Part shown: in pieces, positions 25,300-64,000 of the stretch
How the letters are laid out: each line of letters begins with the position of its first letter
How positions within the stretch are numbered: position 1 is the first letter of the stretch
DNA from: Tetrahymena thermophila SB210
Taxonomy: Eukaryota; Ciliophora; Oligohymenophorea; Hymenostomatida; Tetrahymenidae
Direction: 5' to 3'
Length of the DNA: 64,000 bases
Assembly (NCBI RefSeq): GCF_000189635.1
Contig: NW_002476366.1
Span: 91,217-155,216, forward strand
Translations under genes and position numbers: made by a program
The notes under the pieces: model-generated
The model's input: the letters and a program-made list of their open reading frames with translations, nothing else
Told to the model about the DNA's origin: nothing
Databases searched by the model: none

Positions 25300-25848
25300 A
25301 ATAAATAAAATTATGTAGAATTAATTAAACATTAAATATAACTAAACAATCTTTATTATTAAATAATAGCTATTTATAACTATAAATTGTATATTACTTT
25401 ATTCTATCAAATAATCAATCAATCAATAAACAAACAAACTAATACTTTATGTAAAAATTTTATTTTTTTATTATTTTATCTTTTAATTTTATATTGAATT
25501 GACTATTTTGGATTGTTATTTTTTTAATGATAAACATCATTAATCCATAAATTAAAAAAGACAGTAGAGAAGATAGATGTCTTTAACTTTATAAAGATCT
25601 GAAATAAATAAAATTATGTAGAATTAATTAAAAATTAAATATAACTAAACAATCTTTATTATTAATAAATATCTATTTATAACTATTAATTTTTTTTTAC
25701 TTTATCCTATCAAATAATCAGCCAACCAACAAACAAATTAATTCTTTATGTAAAAATTTTATTTTTTTATTATTTTGTCTTTTAATTTAATTTTATATTG
25801 AATTAACAATTGTGGATTGTTATTTTTTTAAATAATCATTAATCCATT
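25251..25848 (+). repeat. Direct tandem duplication, period ~299 bp, covering the 3' end of the FxFIKK gene
   Basis: 25251-25549 and 25550-25848 share the same order of blocks: the GACAGTAGAGAAGAT coding end, TTTAACTTTATAAAGATCTGA, the downstream ACTAAACAATCTTTATTATTA block, TTTTATTTTTTTATTATTTT and GGATTGTTATTTTTTT. Copies differ by scattered substitutions and small indels. A 4-bp insertion (AGAT) in the second copy shifts its remnant of the coding end. It duplicated the stop codon plus 3' flank. Confidence 0.9.
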
Positions 25849-31500: not shown

Positions 31501-34500
31501 TAATAGTTACAATTTATATTTTTTTGGCTCTGGTAGTAACTTAGTTTTAAAGAGTAAATACTTGGTTCATTATTAATCAATGAAAGTTGTAAAAATCTTT
31601 GACTTAGAATATATTAATTTCTACTCATTTTTTAATCCTTAAAAATATGCTTCGATAAATACAATGATAGATGTAGATAAATAACAAATAGTATAAAGCT
31701 TTAATTCAGAAAACAAACCTTACATTAGTTTTCCTCTGAGTTAATCTTATAATATCATTTATCAAAATAAATAAAACTATGATGCTTATTTTATTGATAA
31801 AAATACTTCTAAAGTTTTAAAACTTAATTTAATATCATAAGAAGTAAATTAATTTGAAGTTAATGTGAACGTAGATTAAATTTATATTGATGATTTGCTA
31901 AGTGCAGCAATATTCACAACATAAAAAAGCTAAATATATGATTTAAATATTATTTATCTTACATAAAGCAGACCTTTTTAAAAAATATTCTCGTATGATA
32001 AAATTTTGAATTTTTAAGTTTGCAAGAACTAACAAAGAGCCATAATTTAGACTAGTTTCACTAATATTTATATTGTAGATGTAAATAATTTTATAATTTT
32101 TTTAATATATTCATCAATATAAACAATTTTTTAAACAAATAGTATGTAAATAATCTCTAGCAAAAAATAGAACTCTAAGTAAATACACTATAAAATTTAG
32201 CTCAATATAAAATCTTATGCGAAGACAATTTAATGATTTAATATACTCCATTTATTGTAGAATATTTAATTAAAGAATCTATTAAAAAACCTATCCAGTA
32301 TTATGTAAAATTAAAAATAATCTTATTTAAAAATTTATTAATCTTTGATTTAAAAAGGCTTAATATATTGATAAATTCTCGATGACAACAATTTCACCTG
32401 TTTTAGATCTTAAAAGGTAGTCATTGATTTTATATTCAAAACTAAATGGCCTTCATTCTATATATTAAGGAATATACTCATTTACTTAAGGAATTTACTT
32501 TTATGACACAACCAACTTATTTTTAGACTCAAATAATAACTTATTAATCAGTACAGATGGAACAGCTAAGTAAATTTAAGTTATCGATGTCTTATCTTTG
32601 AATCAGAAATATAAAGTTCAGTTAAGTAATCAAGTCACCTAACAAAATATATAGTTTGATATAGTCTCTAACCAAATAATCTTACTTGACTAAAATCCAT
32701 CATTATTAATATATCAATATGTAACTAACTAATTTGTTCAAACAAAGCTTTAATATTATCAATTAAAAGGGTTTTAAATTGATTTATTTAAGAAATATAT
32801 CTTTTTCTATGATAGCAGCTATGTTTATGCTCATACATTTCCTGAATTAGTCTTTTTAGAAACTATATTAGATCAATAAAATTTAAATTAATTAATAAAC
32901 TTTGTTTATTTAGATGTTAGAAGAAATTTATTAATTGTTTAAAACCAGGTAGTAATTAATCTCTATGATTTAAATTAAATAGTTTATACACAGAGCTTTA
33001 ATTTACCATAATCATCAGAAATAACTTATCTTAGCTTTGACTCAGATCTATATTTAGTCTATAACTTAAGGATAAGATATTTATCTCTTTTCTCTAAAAG
33101 TATCTTCAAATTTTAATACAAACTGCCTAGTTTATAATCAACTTTGAAAAGCTTATCATATGGCTAACTCATAAAAACAAAAAGTAATACATTTATTTAC
33201 TAAAATCTAGACTATATTTTATTTGGAAAAGTGGATATTAATAATATCTAAATTACAAAAATATCAGAATTAATCTTATAATAATCAATTAGAGATATAT
33301 ATTATTATTTCCAATCAAATTGTCTATACTTAATTGAATATATCACTAACGATATCTATAAAGTAGACTTAAGTTAAGCATTGATTAGCTAATAGCTTTC
33401 TATAATATTGGATCATAAAAATCAAGGATAAAATTTATACTATCGAGGATTGATATATGGAAATTTTTTAATTTACTATTCATCAGGATTTATTTATTCT
33501 TACGATATCTAGGGAAGCCAAATCAAATCTGGTTAATTAAGTCAATTAAATGATATTAGCCTTATATTAAAATTATAAGTTACAAGTGCTAACAATATTA
33601 ATAATTACAGCTCTTAGAATTAGAATATTTATTCAAGCATTAATGATAATTAATAAAACAATTAATTACTAATAATTATTTAATCTGAGTCAATTCTTAA
33701 GATTTTAGATAGTATAAGTTTAGGAGAGCTATTTTCAATTAAAGTTTAATATAACATTTTAAACATTCATATAGAACAAGAAAGAAGTCTTATTTATGTT
33801 GTTGGTGATTAAGGCTTTACAAATGTTTATACAAACAAATTGGAATATAAAATGTAAATAATAAATCCATGCTTATTATAAACGAGAGTACATACTGATG
33901 AGATTTATCTGTACGTTTATTGTGATTCTTAACTGGAAATTTATAATAAGTTCTCAGTAAAAAGAGTATTCCCAATAATTTATGCCTTTACTAATTTGAA
34001 TAAAATATACTACATACATCAGTAAAATTTATTTATTGTTATCTAACATAAAATGATATAAATAGTAAAAATTCTTAAAGATCAGATATAACCTATTGTT
34101 TTGTTTTAAAAAAACTAAAATCTTCTGTAAATTTTAAATTTCTCTGTTAATATTGACTCAAATAATAACAAGTATTTGGAAATTATAGCTTAAGGTTTGA
34201 TGGACATAGTTTAGTATGTAGTCTCTATTGATAGCATATCAAATACATGCTTGTATTCATTTAAGTAGTCTGACTCAAGGTAATTAAACCAATTCATGTA
34301 AAAGTAATTACAAGAAAACCTAATTTATACAAAATAACAATTACAAGAGCTAAAGATATCTCTTAGCAATAATTAAGAAATATAAATTCCTCCTCTGTTT
34401 TATAATTTAAACCCAGATGGTGTGAAAGTAGTTTATTAATCTTAATTTAACGATTTAGATACTTAATAATAAAAACCTATTGTAAAGTGGCAAGATGGCA

Positions 34501-37500
34501 GTTTATTTGACAATAGTTTGATTTAAATTGTATAAATAAGCTCTATAAATTTAGTAATACCAAAAGAACAATAAATAATATTAAACTAACAAAAAAATAT
34601 CAAAAAGTTATTTTTTTATGATATTAATATACTAGACATGTAAACTGATTTAATAATTTAAAATTTAGATTTAGTCCATATAAAGACAATTATTTTTTAA
34701 AACTTTAACCAAATAGAAAACAATAATATGATATCAATAATTAATTGTAAAACAGTGATAATTGAAGATATTTAAATTTTAAATAGCATATTTACTAATG
34801 GATACATTTTTTAAATTGTTAATTCAACTTTTGTAAGTATTTAAAGTGTTAAAATTAGCACTTCTACAGTAGATAATTTTATTGTCATGGATGCAATTTA
34901 GTAAGTTTCAATGAAAAATATCAATATCTTTTCAAGTAGTATTAGCAAAAATTTCTTAAAATAATAATAAAATTATAACACAACACTAGAAAACATTAAA
35001 TGTGAAAGTCTAAAGGGAAATACATTAATTTATTAGATTGGTTGTTAATATTTAAGAATAGATGATTTTAAACTAAATAAAACTAGTTAATCTGATTTCA
35101 ATTTACTCATCACAGAAGAATATTTCGATGTTTATTACTATAAAAATATATTTGTTTAGATGTTAAATTTAGTTTTTTAAGAAAGTGATAACATTAAATT
35201 ATCAATGGTTTCTTCAAAAGTATTCTTTAAAAATATTTAGCTTAAGAGACTTAACTAGAATGGATTTAGCTTATTTGAAATAAATACTTAAGAGCTTGAA
35301 ATTTAAGATTTCTTTTGTAGTTTTTGCAATACCAATTAATAGCTTTATTTGGTTTAAATTCAGGATTCGAATACAATAAAAATAAAAAATTTGCAATTAG
35401 AAAAAAGTAATATCTCTTTAATAAAAATGGATAATTAAATATAAAGTAAAGTTCATATTGATGATTTAAGAATTAATTCTTGTCAGCCACAATCATCTCT
35501 AATATAAATCGAAAACTGTAATTTTTTATAAATTATTTCATCTAATTTTAATTCTAATGAATGCAGTTAAGATGGTTGTGTCTTTATTATTAAAAACATT
35601 GGTAGTTTAAATATATAAGATTCTAAATTTATAGGCAATGTTTCTAAACAAGGAAAAGGTGGAGCAATTTATTTAGGTGATGTTGATACCACAACAATAA
35701 TAAATGTATAATTTATCAAAAATAGAAGTTAAAAGGATTATGGTGGAGCTTTGTATTATTAAAGAGAAGATGGTAGTATCTCTGTTCTAAAAGTATTAAG
35801 TTAGAGCTTGTTTCAAAATAATTCTGCTAATAAAGGTAAAGGAGGAGCAATTTATTTAAGTAAGATAAACTTATATATAGAATAGAGCTAAATAATTTAA
35901 AACGAAGCTGCAGTTGGAGGAGGAATATTTTATGAGCATTATATTCCAGATATTTTTATACAATAAAACTATCCTTATCTCTCATTTATTAAAGAAAACA
36001 AAGCAAGTTTATATGGCAATAATATTGGGTCTAAACTTAGAGCAATTGAAATAGATTTAAGTAAAATTCAAGGAATATAATTAAGTTAGTAAAAACAAAA
36101 TTATTTAAACATTTATGACTTTTAGAGTGGAGGGTATTTAAGCTTGTTAAATGTAAGGTTAAAAGATGAAGAAGGTAACTACTTATAATTTGTCTCTCTA
36201 AATAATTTAGATATAAATAAAAATTTGCTATAGGAGCTTGAGAATTTAAATTTATAAGTGATAACTGATAATGATATTTTAGTTTAAGGCAGTTCTATCT
36301 CTAAGTATTAAGAGAATGGGCTTAATTTAAATTTTAGTATAACATCTAAACCAATGATGAGAAATGTATTCTAAATTCAGTCAAATATCTTATTAGATTT
36401 TTAATCATCTTAGTAAGATAATCTCTTATAATAATATGTAACCTATTAAATTGAAGTCTAGTTTAGAAAATGCCATGTTGGTGAAATCAAAGTCGACTTT
36501 TCAAATAAAATAATATGTGAACAGTGCCCTGATGGAAAGTATTCTCTAAATGAGAGCGATTTAAGCTGCAAGCAATGTCCTAGCAGTGCTTAGTAGTGTT
36601 ATGGTTCTACCATTAACCTTCTTCCTGGCTATTGGAGAGCAAATAATAACACGGATGAGATTTTACATTGCTCCAACAACTAGCATAGTTGTCAACCTCA
36701 GTAAGAAAAGTCAAAAGTATTTAAATTTATTTTTAACATTGATAAGAAAATTATTTTACTTATTTTTTAATTAAAAATAATAATAATAAAAATTTAAATA
36801 AAAAATTATATTTTAAAGTTTGGATGTGAAAAAGGATTTGTCGGACCTCTTTGTGAGACTTGCGACTTTTAAGGGAATGTTTGGGAAAGCAGATACTCAA
36901 AAGCGTTTTTATCTCTAAACTGCATATAATGCTCTGGATATATTGCTATTTTTGTCTTGAACTTTTTAATATTTTTTACTTTCTAGTTTCTATATTTGAC
37001 ATTTAGCGTATACAAGATTATTGAGTAATCAGAGAGGGTTTTGTTGGGATACTATTTAAAATTACTAGGAATTTTGCATCTGAGTAATTCAGGTAAAAAT
37101 TAAATTAATCTTAAGATAATATATTTATTTTTAAATTTTAAAATAAAAACAGTGTATAACTTTTAACAGCCAATTTTCTCCCAAACTTTAGTTGATCATA
37201 TTTAAGTAATATCGGTGATAGATAAGTACAATTTAGATCTTCCTTAAATATTCAGTTTTGGTACTACTTCTATTGGTAATCCTCTTTAGATTTCTAATGG
37301 ATCTTTGGATTGTTTTTTCCCTTTTAAATTTATTGATGGAATGGAATATTGGGTTTTTAGATTTATAATATCGCTTTTCACTCCTTTATCAATTATATTA
37401 TTCCTCTTTTGCTTCTAAATTATTAGAAATGGAAAGAATTTTTACAAATCATACTTGAAATTTAAACTAACTAGTATCATTTATGTTTACATATTTTACT

Positions 37501-39168
37501 TCCCTTCGTTAGTAGCATTAATTTCTCAAACTATAAGCTGTAGAAAAATTGGTTCTAAAAAATATGCCTCTATTGACTTAAATATCGAATGCTACGATTT
37601 TAAAAGACACACAAGGTTTATCTTGATTTTGGTTTTACCTACAATCATTTTTTTTATCATCATAATACCTTATTGGATTTTGAAAATGATTTAAATTCTT
37701 AAAAAGTAAAGACACTAAAGATTTCAACTGAGTAAATACCAGTTTCTTTATGAAGACTACAAACCAAAATATTTTTATTGGTATAAATTGAAAATGTTTT
37801 TTAAATCAATAATTATGACTGCCTCAATATTACTGCTCGAACAGCCAAATATAAGAGTAATTTTTATTTTAAAAAAATCAAAAAAAAAATTATTTTTTAT
37901 TATTAATGTTAGGCTTTTGTAGTAAATATCACTTTGGTATCTTATAGTATAATGTCAACTCGAAGCTGTCCATATATATCTTATTAGAGAAATTAGCTTG
38001 AACAATAATCAATATTCATTTCGATATTAACAATAAATCTTACTTTTCTTTATTAAGGCATTTAAGAAGTAAATCCAAGTGTGAGTCCATATGTGACTAT
38101 TATCATTTATTCCTTGAATGGGTTCTTTATATTAAAACTTGTCTTGCTTGTTTTCTTAGAGCCTATTCCATCAGAAGTTTCATAATAAAACTTTTTCCAA
38201 AAAATCCTATATAAAGCGAAGCTAAGATTTCCAGAAACATTCAGCTTTATAAAAGTATATAAAAATAAATCATTTTAATCAATCAGAAAATTCAACAAGA
38301 TAAAGTAGTCAATAAAATAACTTGCTCAATTAAGGCAGCATTAATTATAATAATTTGAAAGCAAAGTTTAAATTTAAATAAGCAGCAACTGGCGAGTATC
38401 TAGCTCGAAAAAAAATACAAATGCAATCCCTCAAAGTGAACCTCATCCTATGAAGAAATTAAATAAATTTAATACTTTAAGTCCTAGTTTCAAAAAATAA
38501 TCAAATTAAGGTATTTTTATTAACAAAACAGAGAGCTTTAAAGTTAGCTAAAGAGAATTAAGCGTTTTCCATGATTAACTATAATCTAAAGAATTTTTGG
38601 ATGGAAAAGAAAAATAAAAAGTAAAGTTTTCTTAACTTAATATAAATATCACAACACCAAAATACTCAAAAGAACCTGAATAATGTGTGTTTTCTCCAAT
38701 GAATAAATCTACATAAAATGATTTTTTTATTACAAGCTAAGATAAACTATAAGATTAAAAAATTATAGAATCCTAATACTAAATTGCAAATCATAATTTA
38801 AAATCGTTTAAAAAATCTCTAGAAATGGAATAATTTAATAAAGTTTTTAGCACTTCTGTGATAAAACCTGCTAAACAGATAAATAAGCCTAGTTAAGAGA
38901 CTAAAGATCAAACCAGCACATCTGATAACTTATAGTAAAATTAAATATTTAGTAACAATATGCTTCTTGATTCTTAATGCTTGAATGGTAAAATCATAAT
39001 TTATAAATGCCAAAATAATTTAACTAATTTATTTTAATTAATTAAAAAGATACAATGTAAAATGAAAGCCAACCCATCAAATAAGAATAATTTAAACACT
39101 CAGCATAAAATGTAAAATAAAACACCTTTTAGACATTAGTTAGTCACATTAATAAATTATAAAAATGA
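28594..39168 (+). CDS. Giant Cys-rich, beta-helix, multi-pass membrane surface protein
   Basis: Eight exons, 28594-29562, 29819-32080, 32143-32304, 32358-36716, 36819-37092, 37153-37856, 37913-38987 and 39050-39168, give 9924 nt, 3307 aa. Order: a hydrophobic signal peptide (WIVSIILLQLYLL); a Cys-rich furin-like region to about residue 155 (CLDCHQSCKVCFGP, CKQCDQNNACTQCYE); about 2000 residues of beta-rich repeats; a right-handed beta-helix segment with Pmp-type repeats near 2210-2340 (GKGGAIYL, YGGALYY, GKGGAIYL, VGGGIFY); a second Cys-rich knot near 2515-2600 (CEQCPDGKYSL, LLPGYWRANN, GFVGPLCETC); then about eight hydrophobic helices within about 2615-2950 and a hydrophilic Q/S-rich cytoplasmic tail. 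This domain order is typical of large, poorly characterised ciliate transmembrane families. A receptor or adhesin role is inferred. The 256-bp first intron has the least certain acceptor. Confidence 0.88.
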
Positions 39169-41175
39169 ATTTAAAATTTTAAAATTTTGTAATTTTAGTA
39201 GCTATTTTATGATATTGTTCATAAATATTTATTTTCATTTTTTTCTCTGTATGCTTACTTACAAGTTTTTAAATAAATTCATACAAAATTAATTCATTTG
39301 AATCTAAATTTATCATAAAATAACTAATTGCTTCTTTTTAAATTTTTTCTTTATATATTTCAATAAATTTTACTAATTGCAAATAATTATTCTACTTAAG
39401 GTAATTTACAAAATTAAATTATAATAAATTTAAATTAATATTCTACTTAAATTATAAAATTTAACTTCTTCATTTTTTTTTTTTGAGTTTTACCAAAAGA
39501 AAAAAATGTAATCCTAATGTATGATGATTGTTGTAATTTTATATTGAATTAGATTAATTTATAATTTATTATCCTGAAAATAATTATTGTAAATTATACA
39601 ATTTATATTAAATTATCATTTTTATTTATAAATATATTAATCTACCTCTTCATTTTTTATATTTTTATAAAAAAATAAAATTGTCTTTTAACTTAAAAAA
39701 ATTTAAAAAAAGTAGAGCTTTGCAATTGAATTATTTGTAACATTCAAAATTGTAAAATTATTACTAGTAAATATCATTCATTATTTTTTCTTAATTACTT
39801 TTCTTCCTGTTTTTAAGGCTATTAAAGGAAAATAACCCAATTAATACTGCGTAATTATTTAAATTGAAAATAAGGATTCATAAGATTTTGGATCAAATTA
39901 CATAAATTTGTTCTAAATTATTTTCTTGTATTATAAACTAAATGCAGAAAAATAAAAAAAATATCTCAAAATATTTTAAAATGAAAAAAATAAATATTTT
40001 AAATTATAGTAAAAACACAAAATAAAAGAATTTTATCAATTAACTTATTAAAATTTATTGATTTATAAAAGAAAAATTTTACATTTAGTTACATCTACTT
40101 TTTAGGAGTTTTTCCATTTAATTTCTTATTCCACTTTAGAATTTTTTTACAATCTCATGTTACTCAACCTCAAATTTACTAACTATTAAAGTGAAATATT
40201 AATAATATTCTCAAAGTAAAATTTTGAAACATATTATTTAAATTTATAAATCTAATTTTTTTTTTACAAATTTGCTTTGTATCTTTGAACTATTAAAGTC
40301 AGTAAATTAAATTACTAGATATTCACTAGATTCTTAAAAAATAATTAATTTATTTATAACTAATTTGAAAAATATTATTTTATGCATAAATATATTTAAA
40401 TTATTATTTAGATTTTTGTCTTCAAGGAAATCTAAAAAAATCTATTTTGAATATAATTAAAATTTAAGTGGGTATTAATATCAAAATTAAAAATAAAGAT
40501 CACAACACAAATATTCAAAAAGCTGATTAGTTTTCATATTAATAAATGGGTCTTGTTTGACTTTTTAGATACTTAAGCTTTTGTTCTATATTTGTTTATA
40601 TTTATAGAACAGTTTGCAATTAGGTTATAAATATTTTAAAGCTAGAAAGCTAACTTTATATGCTCAGCTCTATTCTATCAATTAATAAAAAAAATCATAC
40701 AAATATAAATCATGGCTATTAGATATTAGATGACAATAATTTAAATTTTAAATTTTTTTTAATTTATCCAATCAATAATTTAGATTGTTTGATTTTTTGT
40801 TTGTTTGTTTGTGATAGTTATTATTATTAGAAGTGATAAATATTATATTTGATGCATTTAGCTAGCTGGTTTATTTTTCAGTAATTTATTAAAAAGAAAA
40901 ATGAATTAAATTTTATTGTCTCTTTTATTATTGATTAGTATTAAGGAAAATTTTACATAAAATTGAATTAAGAATAGACAATTTAAACAGCATTATCTCT
41001 TTGTAAAAAGAATAATCTTTTAGAGATATACGTTATGATTGAATTTCTATTTATAAATAATTTTTTATTTATTTACCTATTCATATATTTATTGCGAAAT
41101 ATAATTGTTATAAATATTAATTATCATATAAATTTAATAAAAAGTTAAGTAAAATAAATTATCATCAATAAATAA
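39169..41175. other. Intergenic, AT-rich (2 kb)
   Basis: No frame longer than noise and no RNA gene recognised. It precedes scramblase 2 and so includes its promoter. Confidence 0.6.
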
Positions 41176-42033
41176 ATGTATCCACCATAATAGCAATAGT
41201 ATAATCAATAACCCTATGGTTAAGGTTATGGATAATAAGGTATGCCTAACATTTAAATGATGCCTATGCAATAGTATGCAGTAGTGGCTATTTAAAACGG
41301 ATTGTAAAAGTTAGCTTCTGCTTAAGGTATATTTATTGAATAGAAGTTAGAAGTCATTGAGGCATTGACTGGATGCTAAACTCCTAATGTCTACAAGGTT
41401 TATCCTGCTGATGTTAATGGTATATAAACATCAGATTAAACTATATTCAAGTGTAAAGAACTTAGTAACTGTTGTGTACGTTAATGCATAGCCCCAAGCT
41501 GCCGTCCATTTGATATGGCAGTCACAAATTAGCAAGGAAAATTAAATTATGGATAACTTTCTGGCTCAACTTTTATTTAAATGTAGCGTCCATTCAAGTG
41601 TACATGCCTTTGCTTCAACCGTCCTGAACTCTCTGTAACAGTTGTAGAAAATGGGATGAATTAGTATCTAGGAAAAATTAGAGAACCATTTAGATTTTGT
41701 GATCTTTGCGTTGAAATTGAAGATGCTGCAGGCAATCTCAAGTTTATAATTTCTGGATCCTGCTGCTAACTTGGTTATCTTTGTATGGGTTGCCCTTATC
41801 AATCTTGCCAAGAATTAACTTTTGAAGTAAAGAATCCAGCAGGTGAACTAATTACAAGAATTTTAAAGAAATCTGCAGGTTGTCTAAAGAGTTGTTTTGG
41901 TAAAACAGATAACTTTACTATAGGTTTCCCTCCTGGTTTGTCTCCTGAAGACAAAGCTCTTTTTATGGCTGCTACTCTTTTAATTGATTATATGTACTTT
42001 GAAAATAAAACAGAACAACCAAATGATTTATGA
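41176..42033 (+). CDS. Phospholipid scramblase family protein (paralogue of 26351-27607)
   Basis: Single exon, 285 aa, close to the usual scramblase length. A short Q/Y/P/G-rich leader of ~40 residues precedes the domain: NVYKVYPADVNG, CVRQCIAPSCRPFDMAV, RPFKCTCLCFNRPELSV, YLGKIREPFRFC, CMGCPYQSCQEL and the Ca2+-site-like block DNFTIGFPPGLSPEDK followed by FMAATLLIDYMYFE. The motif order is the same as in the paralogue at 26351-27607, but the N-terminal extension is far shorter. Codon use is GC-richer than its surroundings, suggesting a well-expressed gene. The two scramblases flank the giant surface-protein gene, so that gene may have been inserted or retained between dispersed duplicates. 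Confidence 0.94.
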
Positions 42034-43438: not shown

Positions 43439-45265
43439 TCATAATAAATTCATTTTTCGAACAAATTTGCTATCTAATTAGAAATAAAAATTATATTAAC
43501 CTCCAAGCCTTTCAATAAGCACACGATCACAATATTCATCGTAATCAAAATCAAAATACCAATCATCGTAATAATATTAATAATCTCCATAATAATCTTT
43601 TTAAAACTTCCTATAATCATATTTATAATATTGTTTGAAGTTTACTAGCTTATTAAATTTTATTAGAAAACGCTTTAATAATATTTGTTTAGGATATTAT
43701 TCATCTTAATAATACTTTATTTCTCGAATTCTTTCGAACATTAACTGAGAAAATTATAAATTCCTAAAATTAAAGTTATTTACTTTAAATTTGTTTATGT
43801 ATTAATTATCTCTATAAAATTTCATTTTTAAACTTATCTATTTTGTTTAATCATTTTAAATATTAAAATTGGAGCTATTTTACTTAAGAAATAAGTAAAT
43901 ATCACTTAAGCTATAAAAGCTAATATTCAATTTCACAAGGTTTTGTAAATTTGTTATCAAAGGGTAAGCATTTATTTTATTTTTGAGATGTAATGAAAGC
44001 TTGCTAACAAAATCATAGAAGTTTATGCTATTCAAATTTTATTAAAATAAATTTTCATCAAAAGATTAAATATATTCGGATTAGTCTATATATAATTTTA
44101 GATTTTTTCTTATATTTCTTCTTTTTAAAGAGTCTAAATAGTATTGCAAGAAATCAATTACGTTTTCTTATTGTTAAAATTCCACTTCAATATATTACAT
44201 TTTAATTTTTTTATTTTAGATTGGTTTCAACTTTAAAATCCTATGATACGATTCTTAATTCTCTCCTTTATTTAGTGATAGATTAAAGTAATGTACTTAG
44301 TTTTAAGATTAATCATTTTCTTGATAAATTAAATTAAAAATTAATTGCTTAAACCATTTTGACTTTAATTCAAAATTAATTAAAAATTTTGTATTAAAGT
44401 TGAATTAAAAATTTTGGAAATAATCTAACATAGTTTTATATTTTTAATGAGATAATATTTCTAATGAGCTAAAAAATAAACTTAAGTAAACTTCTTTGTT
44501 TTTAAAAACCTTACATGTATATTTTCTTTTAGTTTATTCAAATACTCTACACTATTTAAATTAATGTTCTTCATAAAAAGACTCAATTAGTTAAAAGCCA
44601 TCAATATTAAATGATTTCAGATCATTTTCATCTTCGAAATTTAATGTAATCTACAATTAATTTTTTAAACTGAAGTTGCTAAATATTAAATAGGTTTTTT
44701 GTTTAAAACACAATTAAACAATACAGTTTTCTCTTTTATTTTAAATATTTTATTAGATTATTTAAATAAAGTCATTTTAACTTTATGCTATTTTAAATGA
44801 AAAAATTTTTGATGAAACATCTTAAATAAGTATTGATTATTACTCTTTATACTCAAAATCTATTTTCAATGAATTATTGGTAATCATAATTCTTCCTTTA
44901 TTGTATTCATACTTGTAAGTATCATTTAAACGAAACATCTAACTGATAAATAGTACAAACGATTTTGCCTTTTTTTATGTAATCTTGGATCCTAATATTT
45001 GAATCGCAACCTCTTTTAATTATATTTCCTTAATAAATTTCTAAAGAATACAAATCATTTTGTTTTTCATTTCTATTTTTTCAAAGTGCATAATAAGTAG
45101 ATCTAAATTAGATAAAGAGTTTATAAGCTTTATAATGGCACCTAATTCTTTAATTTTCTCATTTTTTAATGATATTTTCAAAGATTTAATATGATCTTAA
45201 GTTTTAGAGAGCTTCTCAGAAAATTAGTTTAACTCCTTCAAACTCTCTATATATTGGATTGACAT
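43439..45265 (-). CDS. Single-exon protein of unknown function with LRR-like N-terminus and Tyr/Asp-rich C-terminus
   Basis: One open ciliate-code frame of 609 codons (608 aa) from ATG at 45265 to TGA at 43441-43439. Gln, Leu, Asn and Lys dominate. The N-terminal ~60 residues contain SLKISLKNEKIKELGAIIK followed by INSLSNLDLLIM, which resembles one unit of the leucine-rich repeat encoded by the exon array 1.7 kb upstream (LSNLTLNL..NQIG). The middle is hydrophilic with regular hydrophobic positions; the end is strikingly aromatic and acidic (DYYGDYQYYYDDWYFDFDYD). No enzyme motif and no membrane segment seen. It may be an independent LRR-like protein, or the terminal exon of a gene that includes the exon array; a 3' splice site joining the two could not be demonstrated. 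Confidence 0.72.
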
Positions 45266-46977
45266 TATTATTATTTATATTTATTAAATTTTATTTTTAT
45301 TTAACAATTAATTTTTAGACTATTAACATCAAACTTTTTAAAAGCTAGTCTTTTTCTTAATAGTGGCTACTTTAATTAAAATTATTTGATCTCCATAATT
45401 AAAAGCTTTTTTTTACTTGTTAATAGCATTAATTTTTATAATATTTTGATAAAGTGGCTAGCTTTTTTTAAAATTTAAACATTTCAAATAATATTAATTT
45501 TATTAATAGAAAAGTAGCTACTTTAATTTATATATAAATGCATCTACCAGAAATCCAAGATGTCAAAATATTAAATTAAAAAAATATTTGTTAGATTTTG
45601 AATACATTTAAAAAAATTATAAAGAACTCTTACCTTTTGGAAAAAATTTAATAGGAGATTAGTCTTCTAGGTTATTCATTCATATTTAAACTATTGATAC
45701 ATAAATACAATCTTTTTATAAAATATCCCATAGTGAAACCTAACCAAGATACATATCCACTAATTTGATTAGAAGTAAGTCTCAAAACTTTATCATTAGG
45801 ATGCTAAGTTTTTATCTAAAAATATTACTTGTTTATATTTATTTATTTCTTAAGTTTTGTTTTATTTTATTGCCAATTTGATTTAAAGTATTGAAATTAT
45901 TTTCTTAATATTATGATTTAAATAAATTCTGAATTTAAACACAAAAACTTATAAATATGTAAAAAAATAGAGCTTTTAAAAAATAATTATATTGTTTTAT
46001 TTATTTCTAAAAATGTATTCGTATTTTTATTTTTTAATTTTTCCATATTATGAATCATTTATTTACACATAGAATATTTATTATTTGATAATTGAAGCGT
46101 TTAAACTAATAAAAATCTAATATCATTCTAGTACTCAAAATTATAGAATCCTTTTAAGGTTTTTTATCATTCATGATATTTTTAAATTGTATTCTAATAG
46201 AGCTTTAAATTATCTATCGAATAATAAATAATAAGTGATAAGAATACATAATAAAATTTCTAATCATTAACAACACAAATTAAAAAAAAAGAAAATTTTA
46301 AAATTTTGAAAAATGAGTGTCAAAAATACCCCTATGGGATAGACACCCTATTTTACCATATATGATGAATACTATTTATGATTAAAATCTAACTGGAATA
46401 TAAAAGCTTGGTATTTATATTATTATATAAGATATAATATAACATTAAAAATTTAAAATGATTTAATGTTTTATTATTATTTATAAGCTATTTATCAGCT
46501 TATATAAATATGATATTTATAAATATAAAATCAGTAATAAAATCTATCTATATATATTTAAGTTAAAAAAACCTTTTCATAATATTATTTTATAATACAT
46601 ATAATATTCAATTATTCAAATATTTAATATGTATTCATCATTTTTTTGCTACTTGTTTATCATAAGAAATATTTTTTAAAGACAACTAATCTTTTAGGTT
46701 TAAGGAATTTGCTTATTACTTTGAATATTTATGATTTATTCATTTATCTAAAACTTTTATAGTAAATTTTTGTAAATTTTAGAGAAATGTTAAATAAAAT
46801 AAACTTTTAAATTGAAAATTTTTTCTTAAATTAATAAATAAAATAATATTAGTTGAATAAAAAAGAAAAAAAAATAAATCAAATAAAAGCTATCAAACAA
46901 ATTCAAGAGCTTTTTTGTTTAATATTCATTTTTATAGTAAAAAATATCACAACTCAAAACAAATAAAATGTTTTTAC
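45266..46977. other. Spacer between LRR-like gene and LRR exon array
   Basis: AT-rich. Near-duplicate TGGCTACTTTAATT / TAGCTACTTTAATT blocks (about 45365 and 45510) and an imperfect inverted AAAGCTAG / CTAGCTTT pair (about 45342 and 45460) hint at a small decayed element. A GTGTC..GACAC hairpin with an inner CCC/GGG pair lies near 46317-46350. No LRR exon recognised. Confidence 0.45.
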
Positions 46978-49900
46978 CTAAGGTGAAGTGTCAAATTTGA
47001 GAGTTTATTGCAATTTGCTAAAGCAGAGCCTAAGCCTGATGCACTCATTTCATCAATTTAATTTTAACTTTTTAAAAATTTAAGAAAAAATATATAGTTA
47101 AATAGAAGGAAAAAATGAAAGAAAAATATGAAATAATAAGATTAATTAATAATAAATCCAAAAGTTTAAAATAAAATAATGAATTAAATTAGCAAAGAAA
47201 GAAGAAAAAAAGCAAGCACAATAAAAAGAAAAAGAAAATTTATTGTTTTTAATTAGTTTTTTATATCTAAAAATATCAATCCAAAACAAATAAACTGTTT
47301 TTACCTAAGGTTAAGTGTCAAATTTGAGAGATTAATGTAATTTGTTAAAGCAGAACCTAAGTTTGATTAACCTATTACACCAATTTAATTTTCACTTTTT
47401 AAAAATTGATGAAAAAAAATATAATTAATTAGTTAATTGGAAGGATAAGATTAATTAATAATAAAAGCAAAAGTTTAAAATAAAATAAAGAGTTAAATTA
47501 GCATAAAGAAGAAAAAAAGCAAACACAATAAAAAAAAAGAAAAAAGAAAATAGAAAAAAGAGCTTTATTGTTTTAAATTAATTTTTTATATCTAAAAATA
47601 TCAATCTAAAACAAATAAACTGTTTTTACCTAAGATTAAGTGTCAAATTTGAGAGATTAATGCAATTTGCTAAAGCAAATCCTAAGCCTGATGTACCTTC
47701 ATCACCAATTTAATTTGACCTTTTTAAATATTGAAGAAAAAATATTTAATTAAATAGTTAATTAGAAGAAAAAAATGAAGAAAAAATATAAAATAATAAG
47801 ATTAATTAATAATAAAAGCAAAAGTTGAAAATAACATGATGAGTTAAATTAACAAAGAAAGAAGAAGAAAAAAGTAAGTATAATAAATAGAAAACGAAAA
47901 AGAAAAAAGAGTTTTATTGTTTTAAATTAGTTTATATATATATATATAGTACCCTAGGGTACTGCCTTTTTCAAGGCTACATACAAATAGAATACATATT
48001 TTGGTTTTACTTTTCTTTTTCGGGGATTTTTGATTTTAAGAAATTTTTATTTTTAATTAGTTTTTATATTTAAAAATATCACAATACAAAATCAATAAAC
48101 TGTTTTTACCTAAGGTTAAGTATCAAATTTGAGAGATTAATGCAATTTGCTAAAGCAGAGCCTAAGCCTGATGCACCAATTGCGCCAATTTAATTTTACC
48201 TTTTTAAATATTTGAAGAAAAAAAAAGGAGTTAAATAAATAGTTAATTAGTAGGAAAAAATGAAGAAATTTTATTAAATAATAAGATTAATTAATAATAA
48301 AAGCAAAATATAAAAATAAAATGATGAGTTAAATTAACAAAGAAAGAAGATAAGAAAGCAAGCACAACAAAAAGAAAAAGAAAAAAGAACTTTATTAATT
48401 TAAATTAGTTTTTATATTTAAAAATATAACAATCCAAAACAAAAACTATTTTTACTCTAGTTTAAGTGTCAAATTTGAGAGATTTATGTAATTTGCTAAA
48501 GCAGAGCCTAAGCCTGATGCACCCATTTCACCAATTTAATTGTAACTTTTTATATATTGAAAAAATATTTTATTAAATAGTTAATTAGAAGGAATAAATG
48601 AAGAAAAAATATGAAATAATAAGATTAATTAATAATAAAAGCAAAAGTTGAAAATAACATGATGAGTTAAATTAACAAAGAAAGAAGAAAAAAAAAAGCA
48701 AGCAAGCACAATAAAAAAGAAAAAGAAAAAACAGCTTTATTGTTTTATATTAGTTTTTATATTCAAAAGTATTATAATCCAAAACAAATAAACTATTTTT
48801 ACTAAAAGTCAAGCGTTAAATTTGAGAGATTAATGCAATTTGCTAAAGCAGAGCCTATGCCTGATGTACCTTAATCACCAATTTAATTGTCACTTAATAA
48901 ATATTGAATAAAATATTTACAATTAAATAGTTAATTAAAAGGAAAAAATGAAGAAACAATAAGAATAATTAATAAAAAAATCAAAAATTGAAAATAAAAT
49001 GATGAGTTAAATTAATAAATAAACAAGAAAAAAAAAAAAAAGCAAGAAAAATAAAAGAAAAAAAAAAAGAGCTATATTGTTTTTAATTAGTTTTTTATTT
49101 CTAAAAATATCACAATCCAAAACAAATAAAAAATTTTTACCTAAGGTAGAGTGTCAAATTTTATAGATTAATGCAATTTGCTAAAGCAGAGCCTAAGCTT
49201 AATACAATCGATTTTACGTTTTATTTTTATCAAAATTTTAGGTTTTTTATTAAAGAGGAAAATAGGTATATATGTAAAATAATCACAAATTAGATATAAA
49301 TTTTTCTAAATGGTTTTCATTAATAATTATCAAATAAATAAAAATATATATAAACATATTAAAAAATTAATTTTAAGTTGTATTCTGAGTGCATTTATAT
49401 GTGCGAGTATTTCTATTCTATTCTATCACCAATTTAATTTGACCTTTTTAAATATTGAAGAAAAAATATAAAATTGAATAATTTATTCGAATGAAAAAAT
49501 GAAGAAAAAATATAAAAAATAAGATTAATTAATAAATTAACAAATAATGAAGAAAAAAAAAAGATTTATTGTTTTAAATTAGTTTTTTATATTTAATGAT
49601 ATCACAATCCAAAACAAATAAACTGTTTTTACTATAGTTCAAGTGTCAAATTTGAAAGATTAATGCAATTTGCTAAAGCAGAACATAAGCCTGATCCACC
49701 TATTGAGCCAATTTAATTGAAACTTTTTAAATATTGAAGAAAAAATATAAAATTAAATAGTTAATTAGAAGGAAAAAATGAAGTAAAAATATGAAATAAT
49801 AAGATTATTTAATAATAAAAGCAAAAGTTGAAAATAAAATGATGAGTTAAATTAACAAATAAAGAAGAAGAAAAAAAAGTAAGAACAATAAAAAAAAAAA

Positions 49901-52137
49901 GAAAAAAGAGCTTTATTGTTTTAAATTAGTTTTTTATATTTAAAAATATCACAATCCAAAACGAATAAACTGTTTTTACAAAAGGTAGAGTCTCAACTTT
50001 GAGAGATTAATGCAATTTGCTAAACCAGAGCCTAAGCATTATGCACCAATTGCACCAATTTAATTTTACCTTGTTAAATATTTGAAGAAAAAATATAAAA
50101 TTAAATAGTTAGTTGGGAGGAAAAAATGAAGAAAAAAAATGAAATAATAAGATTATTTAATAATAAAAGCAAAAGTTGAAAATAAAATGATGAGTTAAAT
50201 TAATAAAGAAAGAAGAAGAAACAAAAAAGCAAGCACAATAAAAAGAAAAAAAAAAAGCTTTATTGTTTTAAATTAGTTTTTTATATTTAAAAATATCTCA
50301 ATCCAAAACAAATAAACTGTTTTTACTAAAGGTCTAGTGCCAAATTTGAGAGATTAATGCAATTTGCTAAAGCAGAGCCTAAACCTGATGCACCCATTTC
50401 ACCAATTTAATTTTCCCTTTTTAAATATTGAAGAACGAATAAAAAATTAAATAGTTAATTAGTAGAAAAAAATAAAGAAGAAATATGAAATAATAAGATT
50501 AATTAATAATAAAAGCAAAAGTTTAAAATAAAATAATGAGTTAAATTAACAAAGAAATAACAAAAAAAAGTAAGCACAATAAAAAGAAAAAGAAAAAACA
50601 GCTTTATTGTTTTTAATTAGTTTTTTATATCTAAAAATATCACAATCCAAAACAAATAAACTGTTTTTACCTAAGGTTAATTGTCAAATTTGAGAGATTA
50701 ATGCAATTTGCTAAAGCGAAGCCTAAGCCTGATGCACCATCATCACCAATTTAATTGTCACTTTTTAAATATTGAAAAAATATATAAAATTAAATAGTTA
50801 ATTAGAAGGAAAAAAGGAAGAAATAAAATGAAATAATAAGATTAATTAATAATAAAAGCAAAAGTTTAAAATAAAATAATGAGTTAAATTAACAAAGAAA
50901 GAAGAAAAAAAAGTAAGTAAAATAAAAAGAAAATGAAAAAAGAGCTTTATTGCTTTAATTTAGTTTTTTATATTTAAAGATATCACAATCCAAAACAAAT
51001 AAACTGTTTATACCCAAGGTTAAGTGTCAAATTTGAGAGATTAATGCAATTTACTAAAGCAGAACCTAAGCTTGTTATACCAATTGCACCAATTTAATTG
51101 ATCCTTTTTAAATAATGAAGAAAAAATATAAATTTAAATAGTTAATTTGAAGGAAAAAATGAAAAAAAAATATGAAATATTAAGATTAATTAATAATAAA
51201 AGCAAAATTTGAAAATAAAATAATGAGTTAAATTAACAAAGAAAGAAGAAAAAAAAGTAAGTACAATAAATAGAAAAAGAAAAAAGAGCTTTATTGTTTT
51301 AAATTAGTTTTTTATATTTAAAAATATCACAATCCAAAACAAATAAACTATTTTTACTAAAGGTCAAGTGTCAAATTTGAGAGATTAATACAATTTGCTA
51401 AAGCAGAGCCTAAGCCTGATGTACCTTTATCACCAATTTAATTGTCACTTTTTAAATATCGAAGAAAAAATATAAAATTAAATAGTTAATTAGAAGGAAA
51501 AAATGAAGAAATAATATGAAATACTAAGATTAATTAATAAGAAAAGCAAAAGTTGAAAATAAAATGATGAGTTAAATTAACAGAGAAAAAAGAAAAAATA
51601 GCAAGCACAATAAAAAGAAAAAGAAAAAAGAGCTTTGTAGTTTTAAATTAGTTTTTTATAATTAAAAATATCACAATCCAAAATAAATAAACTGTATTTA
51701 CCCAAGGTTCAGTGTCAAATTTGAGAGATTAATGCAATTTGCTAAAGCAGAGCCTAAGCCTGATGTACCTTCATCACTAATTTAATTTGACCTTTTTAAA
51801 TATTGAAGAAAAAATATATAATTAAATAGTTAATTAGAAGGAAAAAAAGAAGAAGAAATATGAAATATAATAAGCTTAATTAATAATAAAAGCAAAAACT
51901 GAAAATAAAATGATGAGTTAAATTAACAAAGAAAGAAGAAAAAAAAGTAAGCACAATAAAAAGAAAAAGTAAAAAGAGCTTTATTGTTTTAAATTAGTTT
52001 TTTATATCTAAAAATATCATAATCCAAAACAAATAAATTGTTTTTACTAAAGGTAGAGTATCAAATTTTAGAGATTAATGCAATTTGCTAAAGCAGAGCC
52101 TAAGCCTGATGTACCCATTGCACCAATTTAATTTTAC
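46978..52137 (-). CDS. Leucine-rich-repeat exon array: one 30-aa LRR per 90-nt exon (14 intact, 1 split)
   Basis: On the minus strand each repeat unit holds a 90-nt block preceded by TTTAAAAAG (acceptor) and followed by GTAAAAAC or a near variant (donor). It translates as one LRR of the form xNQIGxxGxSGLGSALANC then INLSNLTLNLR, a ribonuclease-inhibitor-like repeat. Exons in genomic order: 46978-47067, 47305-47394, 47630-47719, 48110-48199, 48456-48545, 48803-48892, 49141-~49443 (split), 49633-49722, 49980-50069, 50327-50416, 50671-50760, 51014-51103, 51358-51447, 51702-51791, 52048-52137. Every intact exon is free of TGA and is symmetric (one leading nt, two trailing), so any subset can be joined in frame. 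Variation is concentrated at the xxGxS positions (DEG, AIG, EMG, DDG, SIG). No convincing first exon, start codon or last exon was found. It could be a real gene core, an alternatively spliced cassette array, or an expanding gene fragment. Confidence 0.6.
47935..48060. other. Extra ~130-bp segment with a perfect palindrome inside the LRR array
   Basis: One array interval is ~480 bp instead of ~345. The extra DNA starts with a (TA)n run and the perfect 16-bp palindrome AGTACCCTAGGGTACT (47948-47963), then GC-richer sequence with TTTTTCGGGGATTTTTG, absent from other units. Confidence 0.7.
49141..49443 (-). pseudogene. LRR exon split by a ~225-bp insertion
   Basis: The exon half 49141-49203 encodes the usual SLGSALANC..LR portion and the other half (about 49425-49443) encodes the SNQIGD start. 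About 225 bp of unrelated AT-rich DNA (about 49204-49424) lies between and introduces an in-frame TGA when read through. Because exons are phase-symmetric, skipping this one would leave the rest in frame. Confidence 0.65.
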
Positions 52138-52565
52138 CTTTTTAAATATTGAAGAAAAAATATATCATTAAATAGTTAATTAGAAGGAAAAAATGAAGAA
52201 AAAATACAGTATGTTTCAAAAAGTTGTTAGCTTTTTATTAAAAAATTTAATCTACCTTCCCATTTTTTTTTCTTGAGTCGAGGAGCTACAGTAGTTCTTA
52301 ATACTTTTCACAACATAATTTGGTCAAACAAATGTAAAAAATTATTAAAGTGATTAACATATAAAAGCTTCATCGATTTAAAAAGATTGAAAAAAAAGCA
52401 TTAAATATAAATTTTAAAATTAATTTAAATTCTAACATATGGAATATCAAAATTTTAATAATTATAACATAAATCAAATAGTGATGAGTTTGTTTAATAA
52501 GTTTGTTCAAGTAAAATTTTGAATTATAATTTTTGTGTTAAATATTAATACAAATTTAATTTCAA
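52138..52565. other. Head-to-head spacer between LRR array and methyltransferase gene
   Basis: The repeat sequence stops abruptly near 52205. The rest is AT-rich with one GC-richer patch (TTGAGTCGAGGAGCTACAG near 52274). I looked for a first exon of the LRR gene on the minus strand here and found none. Confidence 0.5.
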
Positions 52566-53714
52566 ATGGCACAGTCCTAGCTAGCTTGTTAACAAACATA
52601 AAGTTTATCCAAATAATTATAAAAATGTATTAGCTCTTTTCCAAAATATTTTAGATGCTTACAAAAAAAAGAAAGTACCAAATAAACAATGAAATAGTTA
52701 AATTATATTTGATGTTTTTCATTCTATTTAGAGTTCAATTTGAAAAAGAAATTTCAAATAATAAAATTTCAACAAAATATCATAGCCTGCATAATTAGAC
52801 TTTTAAAGTATTTTGATAATGTAAGTAAGTCAGTAAAGATAATAAATAATAATAATAAAAACAACTTTTTGCATAAAATGATAGCTAAAACTATCCCTGA
52901 AATAGAAGCTTATTGGAATTAATTTTCTTAAAATTATGTCAATATGTATAATGGTAGCAGTACTTTTTACTTATCACTTATAAACATGCTTTAAATTTAG
53001 AATCGTAATTGCATATTAGAAGTAGGAGCTGGATCTGGATTCTTGTTTCATCATACAATGAATTATAAAAAATCTGAAGCAAAATATGTGGCAACAGACT
53101 TATCTGAAAATATGCTTTAATATATCTTGATGAGATTGAATATAAAAGAGGCCTTTAAGGATAAATACTTCATCTCAAGTTATAATTTAACTATAGAGAA
53201 AGCCAATGGAGAAGAATTGCCTTTTCTCGATGGTACATTTGATTGTTATATTGCTAATCTATGCTTATAAATAACTAACGACCCAGCTAAAATGCTAAAG
53301 GAATCTTATAGGGTATTGCAAAAAGGAGGAGTAGCTGGCTTTAGTGTTCAAGGAGATAAAGAAAAGTCATCCTTATTTACAATTATATCTGATATTCTAA
53401 CAGAATATGGATGTTTAAATACTTAAATAAGAAGTAATTTTCACCTCAACAACAGATAGAAACTAATTTAAATGATGGAAGAAGCAGGTTTTACAAATAT
53501 TATATGTTGGGATCAATTTTCTCCTTATCATATCTAGATTGAAGATATGCTTAATTATTTAGATTCTCCAAATAACACTCTTGCTCTTTAAAAAGCAGGC
53601 CAAAATGGCGATGAAATTAAATAAAAAATATAAGAAAAGTTAAAAGATTTGATTAACAATAAAAAACTTCCACTTGGTTTAGATGCATTACTGATAATAG
53701 GTGTTAAAAACTGA
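52566..53714 (+). CDS. Class I SAM-dependent methyltransferase (methyltransferase-11-like)
   Basis: Two exons, 52566-52674 and 52732-53714, joined by a 57-bp intron, give 363 aa. The SAM-binding motif I is ILEVGAGSGFL at about residue 140; acidic motif II is VATDLSENML; a GEELPFLDGTFDCYIAN block and LKESYRVLQKGGVAGFSV match the methyltransferase-11 pattern seen in UbiE/SmtA-like enzymes. Upstream, IPEIEAYWNQFSQNYVNMY is the typical lead-in helix. The N-terminal ~90 residues are basic and Ser/Gln-rich, possibly an organelle-targeting leader. Substrate cannot be inferred. A potential GTAAGTAAG donor inside exon 2 (about 52820) was not used because the only nearby acceptor breaks the frame. Confidence 0.85.
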
Positions 53715-61558: not shown

Positions 61559-61806
61559 AAGAAGATATATCAATCATACAATCAATCTATAAATTTAACT
61601 ATTTATATGTGTTTATTTCTATTTATTCAAATTATTTTAATTATTACTTCAAAATAATTTAATTTACTCTAGTTTATTTTTAGAAGATATATCAACACAC
61701 AATCATTCAATCTATAAATTTAATTATTTATATGTGTTTATTTCTATTTATTCAAATTAATTTTTCATTATTATTTCATAATCATTCATTTACTCTAGTC
61801 TATTTT
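61559..61806 (+). repeat. Direct tandem duplication, period ~122 bp
   Basis: Copies begin at about 61560 and 61682 with GAAGATATATCAA and share CAATCTATAAATTTAA, TATTTATATGTGTTTATTTC and a TTTACTCTAGT end, with small indels. Noncoding, upstream of the PLD-family gene. Confidence 0.85.
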
Positions 61807-62450
61807 TTAATTCAAAAAAATTTATTAATTTTAAAAATTTTTAGATAAATTAAAATAAAATTTATCCTAAAATAAATCGAATAAAATCAGATAACTATTT
61901 TTTTTTCTCTTTATCATCAATTTTCTCACTAAAAATAAAACAAAAACAAATTCTTTTAGAGATTTATAAATGAATTTTGAAAATTTTTATATTAAAAATA
62001 TAGTTTATAGTTTTAGATGAAAATGTTAGTATATTATATAAGAGTTTATTTTAAAAAATATTTTTAAAATAAGAATATAATGATAATATATATCTATTTG
62101 TATTTATTCGGTCAGTATAAATCATTGAAATTTTGGCTGTTTATTAAAGATAGAAAATATCTAAATGCATGAATGCTTTCTCATTTAATAAGTTTGTTAA
62201 AAAAATATCTTACTTTTATTTTTAGGTAAATAGGTCGATAGAAAATATTCATGCTTAAATTTGATCCAAAAAAGATATTCTTACAAAATTTTAATCTTAA
62301 AACGTGTAAAATCAATCAAAATATGCAATTTTTTATCACTATTTTGTTTAGATAACTTATTTTAATATCAGATATATCTTCGTTTTCATCAAAAAGATAT
62401 AACAAATTTAATTAAAAAATAACAAAAAAATCACAAAAAAAAAACAATAA
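61807..62450. other. Intergenic, upstream of the PLD-family gene
   Basis: AT-rich; nothing further supported. It should contain the promoter of the most telomere-proximal gene. Confidence 0.55.
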
Positions 62451-63963: not shown

Positions 63964-64000
63964 GGGGTTGGGGTTGGGGTTGGGGTTGGGGTTGGGGTTG
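63964..64000 (+). repeat. Telomere, (GGGGTT)6
   Basis: Six perfect GGGGTT units plus one G run to the end of the window, the Tetrahymena-type telomere repeat in the orientation expected for a right chromosome end. Units are homogeneous, unlike the mixed GGGGTT/GGGTTT of Paramecium. Confidence 0.98.

Follow-up and report, generated by a model that had tools for sequence, protein, structure and literature searches.

An array of 90-nt leucine-rich-repeat exons in Tetrahymena thermophila with non-synonymous divergence concentrated at exposed codons

RESULTS

Layout and reading frame of the array

We analysed a window of 64,000 nt from Tetrahymena thermophila SB210 (contig NW_002476366.1, positions 91,217 to 155,216 of the forward strand), the minus strand of which carries, at window positions 46978-52137, 15 blocks, 90 nt each, arranged in tandem. 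Each block encodes one leucine-rich repeat (LRR). The blocks were located by a Hamming scan of the minus strand with a 65-nt probe; 14 are intact, the first eight of them in a row, and one (block 9) is split. Units are ∼344 bp long, and tandem periods of 325, 338 and 344 bp were found across the array. The acceptor AG stands at its expected place in 14 of the 15 blocks and the donor GT in all 15, the exception being block 9, whose AG sits with its displaced 5′ part. Introns measure 235-257 nt, save for 390 nt in intron 12 and a 402-nt stretch preceding the 3′ part of block 9. Nine of the 12 introns shorter than 300 nt are 253-257 nt long, and the remaining three 235, 237 and 248 nt. The acceptor is separated from the previous AG by 168 nt or more in 10 of these 12 ordinary introns and by 76 and 83 nt in the other two, counts that were made without a shuffle control.

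In the ciliate code (code 6) all 14 intact blocks are open at offset 1, which is their common frame; offset 0 is open in four of them (stops in 10/14) and offset 2 in two (stops in 12/14). Because TGA is the sole stop in this code and only ∼1.3 TGA would be expected over 14 copies of the shared frame at intron substitution rates, the open frame alone is modest evidence. Each junction codon takes two bases from the end of a block and its third from the start of the following one, i.e. the introns, as read from the frame, are of phase 2. The original prediction, which was made from the letters of this stretch, had described exactly such minus-strand exons of 90 nt, one LRR each, open in the ciliate code and with the same phase at both ends, and this description holds for every intact block. 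When a 29-residue profile built from the 14 intact exons was compared with the six code-6 frames of the whole window (segments of at least 20 residues, E up to 10), it matched 14 frames, every one inside 46950-52307. Exact exon-core patterns found 0 stretches in the collections of genome contigs and 0 in those of viral contigs, as expected for a ciliate gene.

LRR identity and the published gene class

The exon consensus of the 14 intact copies is QNQIGEIGASGLGSALANCINLSNLTLNL plus the junction residue. RI-like LRR repeats have the pattern LxxLxLxxNxIGxxGx over about 28-30 residues. Joined and translated, the first eight blocks matched the Pfam family LRR_6 (PF13516) with an E value of 3.4e-15, and at E 0.001 they matched 11 distinct LRR sequences in PDB, largely from cilia and flagella proteins. 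With these matches the predicted array protein fits the RI-like repeat pattern, and the PDB alignments place codons 26-2 on the LxLxxN strand.

This gene design, which the original prediction had not recognized, is already known, having been published in 2019 as the Tetrahymena class of LRR genes with 90-bp exons (Xiong 2019, PMC6564038). As described there, the exons are exactly 90 bp long and form arrays of three or more, >98% of the introns preceding them are of phase 2, and introns are ∼257 bp long in T. thermophila (unit ∼347 bp) and ∼232 bp in T. malaccensis. The array shares with this class the exact 90-bp exons, the phase-2 introns, the tandem units recognizable at the nucleotide level and the single LRR per exon, and its commonest intron lengths agree with the T. 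thermophila figure. Moreover, leucine codons here are 12, 16, 22, 25, 27 and 29, with leucine in 13-14 of the 14 copies, and these match the six published codon centres at nt 36, 48, 66, 75, 81 and 87 (PMC6564038). We place the locus in group III of the class, and its intron length, genetic code and telomere repeat point to T. thermophila.

Divergence of exons and introns

Over the same 11 units, mean mismatch was 0.162 in exons and 0.099 in introns, the exon value being the higher in 52 of 55 pairs. The intron alignment contains 90 gap columns of 289, while the blocks hold their exact length of 90 nt. A mismatch of 0.4 or more was seen in 15 of 90 columns of the exons versus 13 of 254 of the introns; of the 15 exon columns, 13 lie in codons 1, 6, 7, 9, 28 and 30. 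Thus exons and introns, whose equal rate and pattern of divergence would have spoken against the original prediction, differ in both.

Exon distances between units did not track those of the downstream introns (r -0.03, P 0.54) or of the introns upstream (r -0.47, P 0.98), nor did they track array position (r -0.14, P 0.88), to which intron distances were weakly related (r 0.24, P 0.08), with 11 to 14 units in each comparison. This independence of the exon distances fits the extensive ectopic recombination reported for the family (PMC6564038), but few informative sites would give the same picture. Unequal crossing-over has been proposed as the mechanism of copy-number change in the family (PMC6564038), and the copy number of the present array was likely generated in this way.

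Codon-specific variation

The seven most variable codons are, in order, 30 (the junction), 1, 7, 28, 6, 9 and 26; at the most variable codons the consensus is a column-wise composite. In the register given by the PDB alignments, codons 26, 28, 30 and 1 supply the exposed concave-face residues, at the x positions around LxLxxN, and of 100,000 random sets of four codons 49 had a mean entropy at least as high as this set. Differences between copies are clustered, as had been predicted, but not in one three-residue window: codons 6, 7 and 9, which we call loop codons, vary along with the four face codons.

As the neutral yardstick we took the array's own introns, with 151 changes in 2735 sites, and star counts of changes in each codon group were compared with the resulting expectation. 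At face codons 1, 26 and 28, 28 non-synonymous changes were observed versus 5.5 expected (synonymous, 3 versus 2.2); at loop codons the figures were 35 versus 7.4 (synonymous, 4 versus 1.2, P 0.03), and at the other 23 codons 24 versus 49.9 (synonymous, 18 versus 16.6). Non-synonymous change is thus ∼5-fold over the intron expectation at face and loop codons and halved at the other 23. The scaffold, which had been thought fixed, is instead constrained, since those 24 non-synonymous changes fall in it. For synonymous change, star counts give a rate close to that of the introns and pairwise counting a somewhat higher one. The per-codon comparison that had been suggested as a check gave pairwise ratios of non-synonymous to synonymous rates (dN/dS) of 3.57 for the face including the junction codon, 3.17 for the loop and 0.45 for the rest, and dropping any single copy altered the result little.

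Because the non-synonymous rate is halved over 23 codons and block length is constant, the blocks evolved as protein: the array has the history of a translated sequence, not of a satellite. For the ∼5-fold excess at exposed codons, diversifying selection fits better than age alone. In plant NLRs the concave positions of LxxLxLxx are read as the binding site (PMC8226289), and the codon pattern hints that selection may have diversified residues on the side where a partner would bind. Among the literature matches listed, whose coverage mostly leaves out subscription papers, no report of site-specific diversification in Tetrahymena LRR exons was found, and the terms 'positive selection', 'diversifying' and 'hypervariable' have 0 occurrences in the main text of PMC6564038.

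Candidate gene ends, inserts and neighbourhood

The original prediction recognized no start or terminal exon, and candidates for both can be named (Table 1). In the 600 nt upstream of exon 1 there are 10 combinations of an ATG with a phase-2 GT (5 ATGs), and ATGGGAAG is the only one whose exon ends in AG before GTA, AG being the exon end in 6 of the 15 array blocks; it is a plausible start exon. Downstream, exon 15 read through its donor meets a TGA after ten codons. Among the other 14 donors, read-through reaches a stop at ten codons in nine, at 13 in one and nowhere within the intron in four, i.e. a ready-made end is carried by most, not all, units. An open reading frame (ORF) of 629 residues (43442-45328, minus strand), ∼1.65 kb away, was considered as a C-terminal part; it has its own ATG and no Pfam family at 0.01, and the assignment is unsupported.

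Block 9 consists of a 5′ part (the acceptor and first 19 nt, 49443-49425) and a 3′ part (the last ∼65 nt with the donor, ∼49205-49141), with ∼219 nt of other DNA between them (49206-49424); the intron before it (49444-49632) is shortened to 189 nt. Since all blocks have a common phase, block 9 could be skipped without frameshift. The insert in intron 12 is possibly a retained retrotransposon tail; 169 copies of the 54-bp Tt.REP tail are kept in the T. thermophila somatic genome (PMC6564038).

Table 1. Features of the array and its flanks (window positions)
Feature	Position	Strand	Basis
Whole array: 14 intact 90-nt blocks and split block 9, one LRR each, phase-2 introns	46978-52137	-	probe scan, tandem periods, LRR_6 match
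90-nt exon 1	52048-52137	-	probe scan
90-nt exon 2	51702-51791	-	probe scan
90-nt exon 3	51358-51447	-	probe scan
90-nt exon 4	51014-51103	-	probe scan
90-nt exon 5	50671-50760	-	probe scan
90-nt exon 6	50327-50416	-	probe scan
90-nt exon 7	49980-50069	-	probe scan
90-nt exon 8	49633-49722	-	probe scan
Split block 9	49141-49443	-	probe scan; no AG at expected place
90-nt exon 10	48803-48892	-	probe scan
90-nt exon 11	48456-48545	-	probe scan
90-nt exon 12	48110-48199	-	probe scan
90-nt exon 13	47630-47719	-	probe scan
90-nt exon 14	47305-47394	-	probe scan
90-nt exon 15	46978-47067	-	probe scan
Insert in intron 12	47933-48038 (about)	-	both flanks match unit positions 181-207; one end (TA)n
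Candidate start exon ATGGGAAG, then GTAGAT; 118-nt intron to exon 1	52256-52263	-	phase-2 donor, A-run before ATG; inferred
Candidate 3′ end: TGA (46949-46947) reached from exon 15 past its donor, RQKHFICFEL*	46947-46977	-	stop-to-stop frame ends at 46947; inferred
5′ limit of unit homology: 69 nt before exon 1 matching the 3′ end of array introns	52138-52206	-	unit comparison

On the opposite strand, a methyltransferase-domain ORF (PF08241, 6.6e-17; 52713-53711) adjoins the array. Elsewhere in the window there are two plus-strand ORFs with a scramblase domain (PF03803; 26141-27604, 1.7e-23, and 40837-42030, 3.7e-34) and a plus-strand ORF of 1911 codons (32349-38081) that matches the Chlam_PMP repeat (2.2e-07) and, more weakly, NCD3G and ephrin-receptor-like families and has no PDB relative at 0.001. 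Two-copy tandem duplications lie at 25250-25847 (303 bp) and 61560-61807 (125 bp). The window ends in (GGGGTT)n telomere repeat (63964-64000), 11.8 kb from the array, which does not give its place on a germline chromosome.

DISCUSSION

Taken together, the data make it probable that the locus is a group-III-type member of the Tetrahymena 90-bp-exon LRR genes, read from the minus strand and spliced block to block, in which exposed residues have been diversified. The message would start at the tiny candidate exon upstream of the array, and any number of 90-nt blocks could then be joined in frame; the last exon would read on to the TGA behind exon 15. With block 9 skipped, such a message would have 8 + 14x90 + 28 nt, i.e. 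432 codons, by arithmetic on the candidate ends. In the germline, unequal crossing-over and conversion among the units would alter repeat number, and selection would maintain the leucine scaffold and diversify concave-face and loop residues, as in a ligand-binding repeat protein.

Several points weigh against this model. One block of the array is split, and start and end are both candidates without a homologue for comparison. Invariant columns are fewer in exons (41/90) than in introns (157/254, a set with fewer sequences), dN/dS over the exon as a whole is 1.12, and the loop codons have more synonymous changes than expected. By pairwise counting the exon as a whole has a dS of 0.166, above the intron mismatch of ∼0.10; exons may thus be somewhat older or more mutable, which lowers our confidence in the model. 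Poisson and Fisher figures treat the copies as independent despite their common ancestry, which makes the Poisson P too small, and when each distinct variant codon was counted only once the contrast weakened to 27 non-synonymous and 3 synonymous versus 22 and 12 (P 0.02). The loop codons, moreover, were picked after their variation had been seen, and the register of the face, although general LRR knowledge, was also applied after inspection. Finally, the closest PDB relatives are largely proteins of cilia and flagella and do not suggest recognition of foreign matter.

Among other explanations, the one that survives best, although we regard it as unlikely, is that of a decaying or truncated gene, once translated and now making no protein because of the insert in block 9 or the loss of its ends. 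The ∼219 nt that split block 9 favour it, as does the fact that no N- or C-terminal domain was found and that both ends are candidates. On the other hand, AG and GT stand exactly 90 nt apart around an open frame in 14 of 15 blocks although the introns have many indels; a recent death would leave this spacing and frame intact. Of the earlier suggestion of an untranslated or dying expansion, the first half is disfavoured for most of the history of the array by the selection pattern, and the second is kept as this alternative in view of block 9.

Slightly less probable is that the LRR exon types are old and that gene conversion has since made introns and scaffold uniform, leaving the differences at face and loop codons without any selection for diversity. 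Exon distances independent of intron distances, pairwise exon dS above the intron level and the ectopic recombination known in the family (PMC6564038) are what it would lead one to expect. Since star-count synonymous changes at face and scaffold codons are near the intron expectation, any extra age of the exons is small compared with the 5-fold excess, and conversion would also need to spare just the exposed codons.

An exon-skipping repertoire, i.e. many LRR proteins made from one locus by alternative splicing, is compatible with the model of a diversified LRR gene, but we think it improbable. All intact blocks are 90 nt long in one phase, so that skipping would stay in frame, as in human NLRP3, where alternative splicing acts on LRR exons that preserve the frame (PMC6642158); such symmetry, however, arises automatically when one unit duplicates, and 'alternative splicing' has 0 occurrences in the main text of PMC6564038. 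That the array is a non-coding satellite with an accidental open frame can practically be dismissed, because the ∼344-bp tandem period and the few stops expected by chance in the ciliate code are outweighed by the constant block length, the halved non-synonymous rate at 23 codons and the published coding family of the same design (PMC6564038).

Returning to the diversified LRR gene, the part to carry forward is the codon-specific diversification, the kind of gene being known. Bacteria recognition-like processes were proposed as the function of the class, a question left open by those authors (PMC6564038). By analogy with plant NLRs, the array might be part of a germline-encoded recognition repertoire of a single cell, built by exon shuffling, as the source of new orders and numbers of LRRs, and by diversifying selection on the concave face of each repeat, but this is a tentative idea that we hold to be rather doubtful. 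If it were true, the many 90-bp-exon genes of Tetrahymena would form a variable system by which bacteria, kin or cell products are recognized. Comparing single codons with the array's own introns suggests that a binding surface is under diversification; the same test could be run on all members of the family and would open the question of function to direct testing.

Known systems differ from the array in several ways. In contrast to the published class, the array has one split block, and for its ends there are candidates; moreover, gene-level Ka/Ks is below 1 in PMC6564038, whereas the array has a codon-specific non-synonymous excess. Human NLR genes such as NLRP3 likewise have frame-preserving exons for RI-type LRRs, but NLRP3 is a vertebrate receptor with other domains and its alternative splicing has been shown (PMC6642158), while the array is known from sequence alone; among the 10 large ORFs of the window Pfam found no nucleotide-binding domain, the ends of the array gene itself being only predicted. 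The variable lymphocyte receptors of lamprey and hagfish are also diversified LRR receptors, but their diversity comes from a gene-conversion-like, deaminase-mediated step (PMC3900441), of which the array gives no indication. In the highly variable plant NLRs, as in the array, variable residues lie on the LRR surface; there the variation is between alleles (PMC8226289), and here it is between the repeats of one locus.

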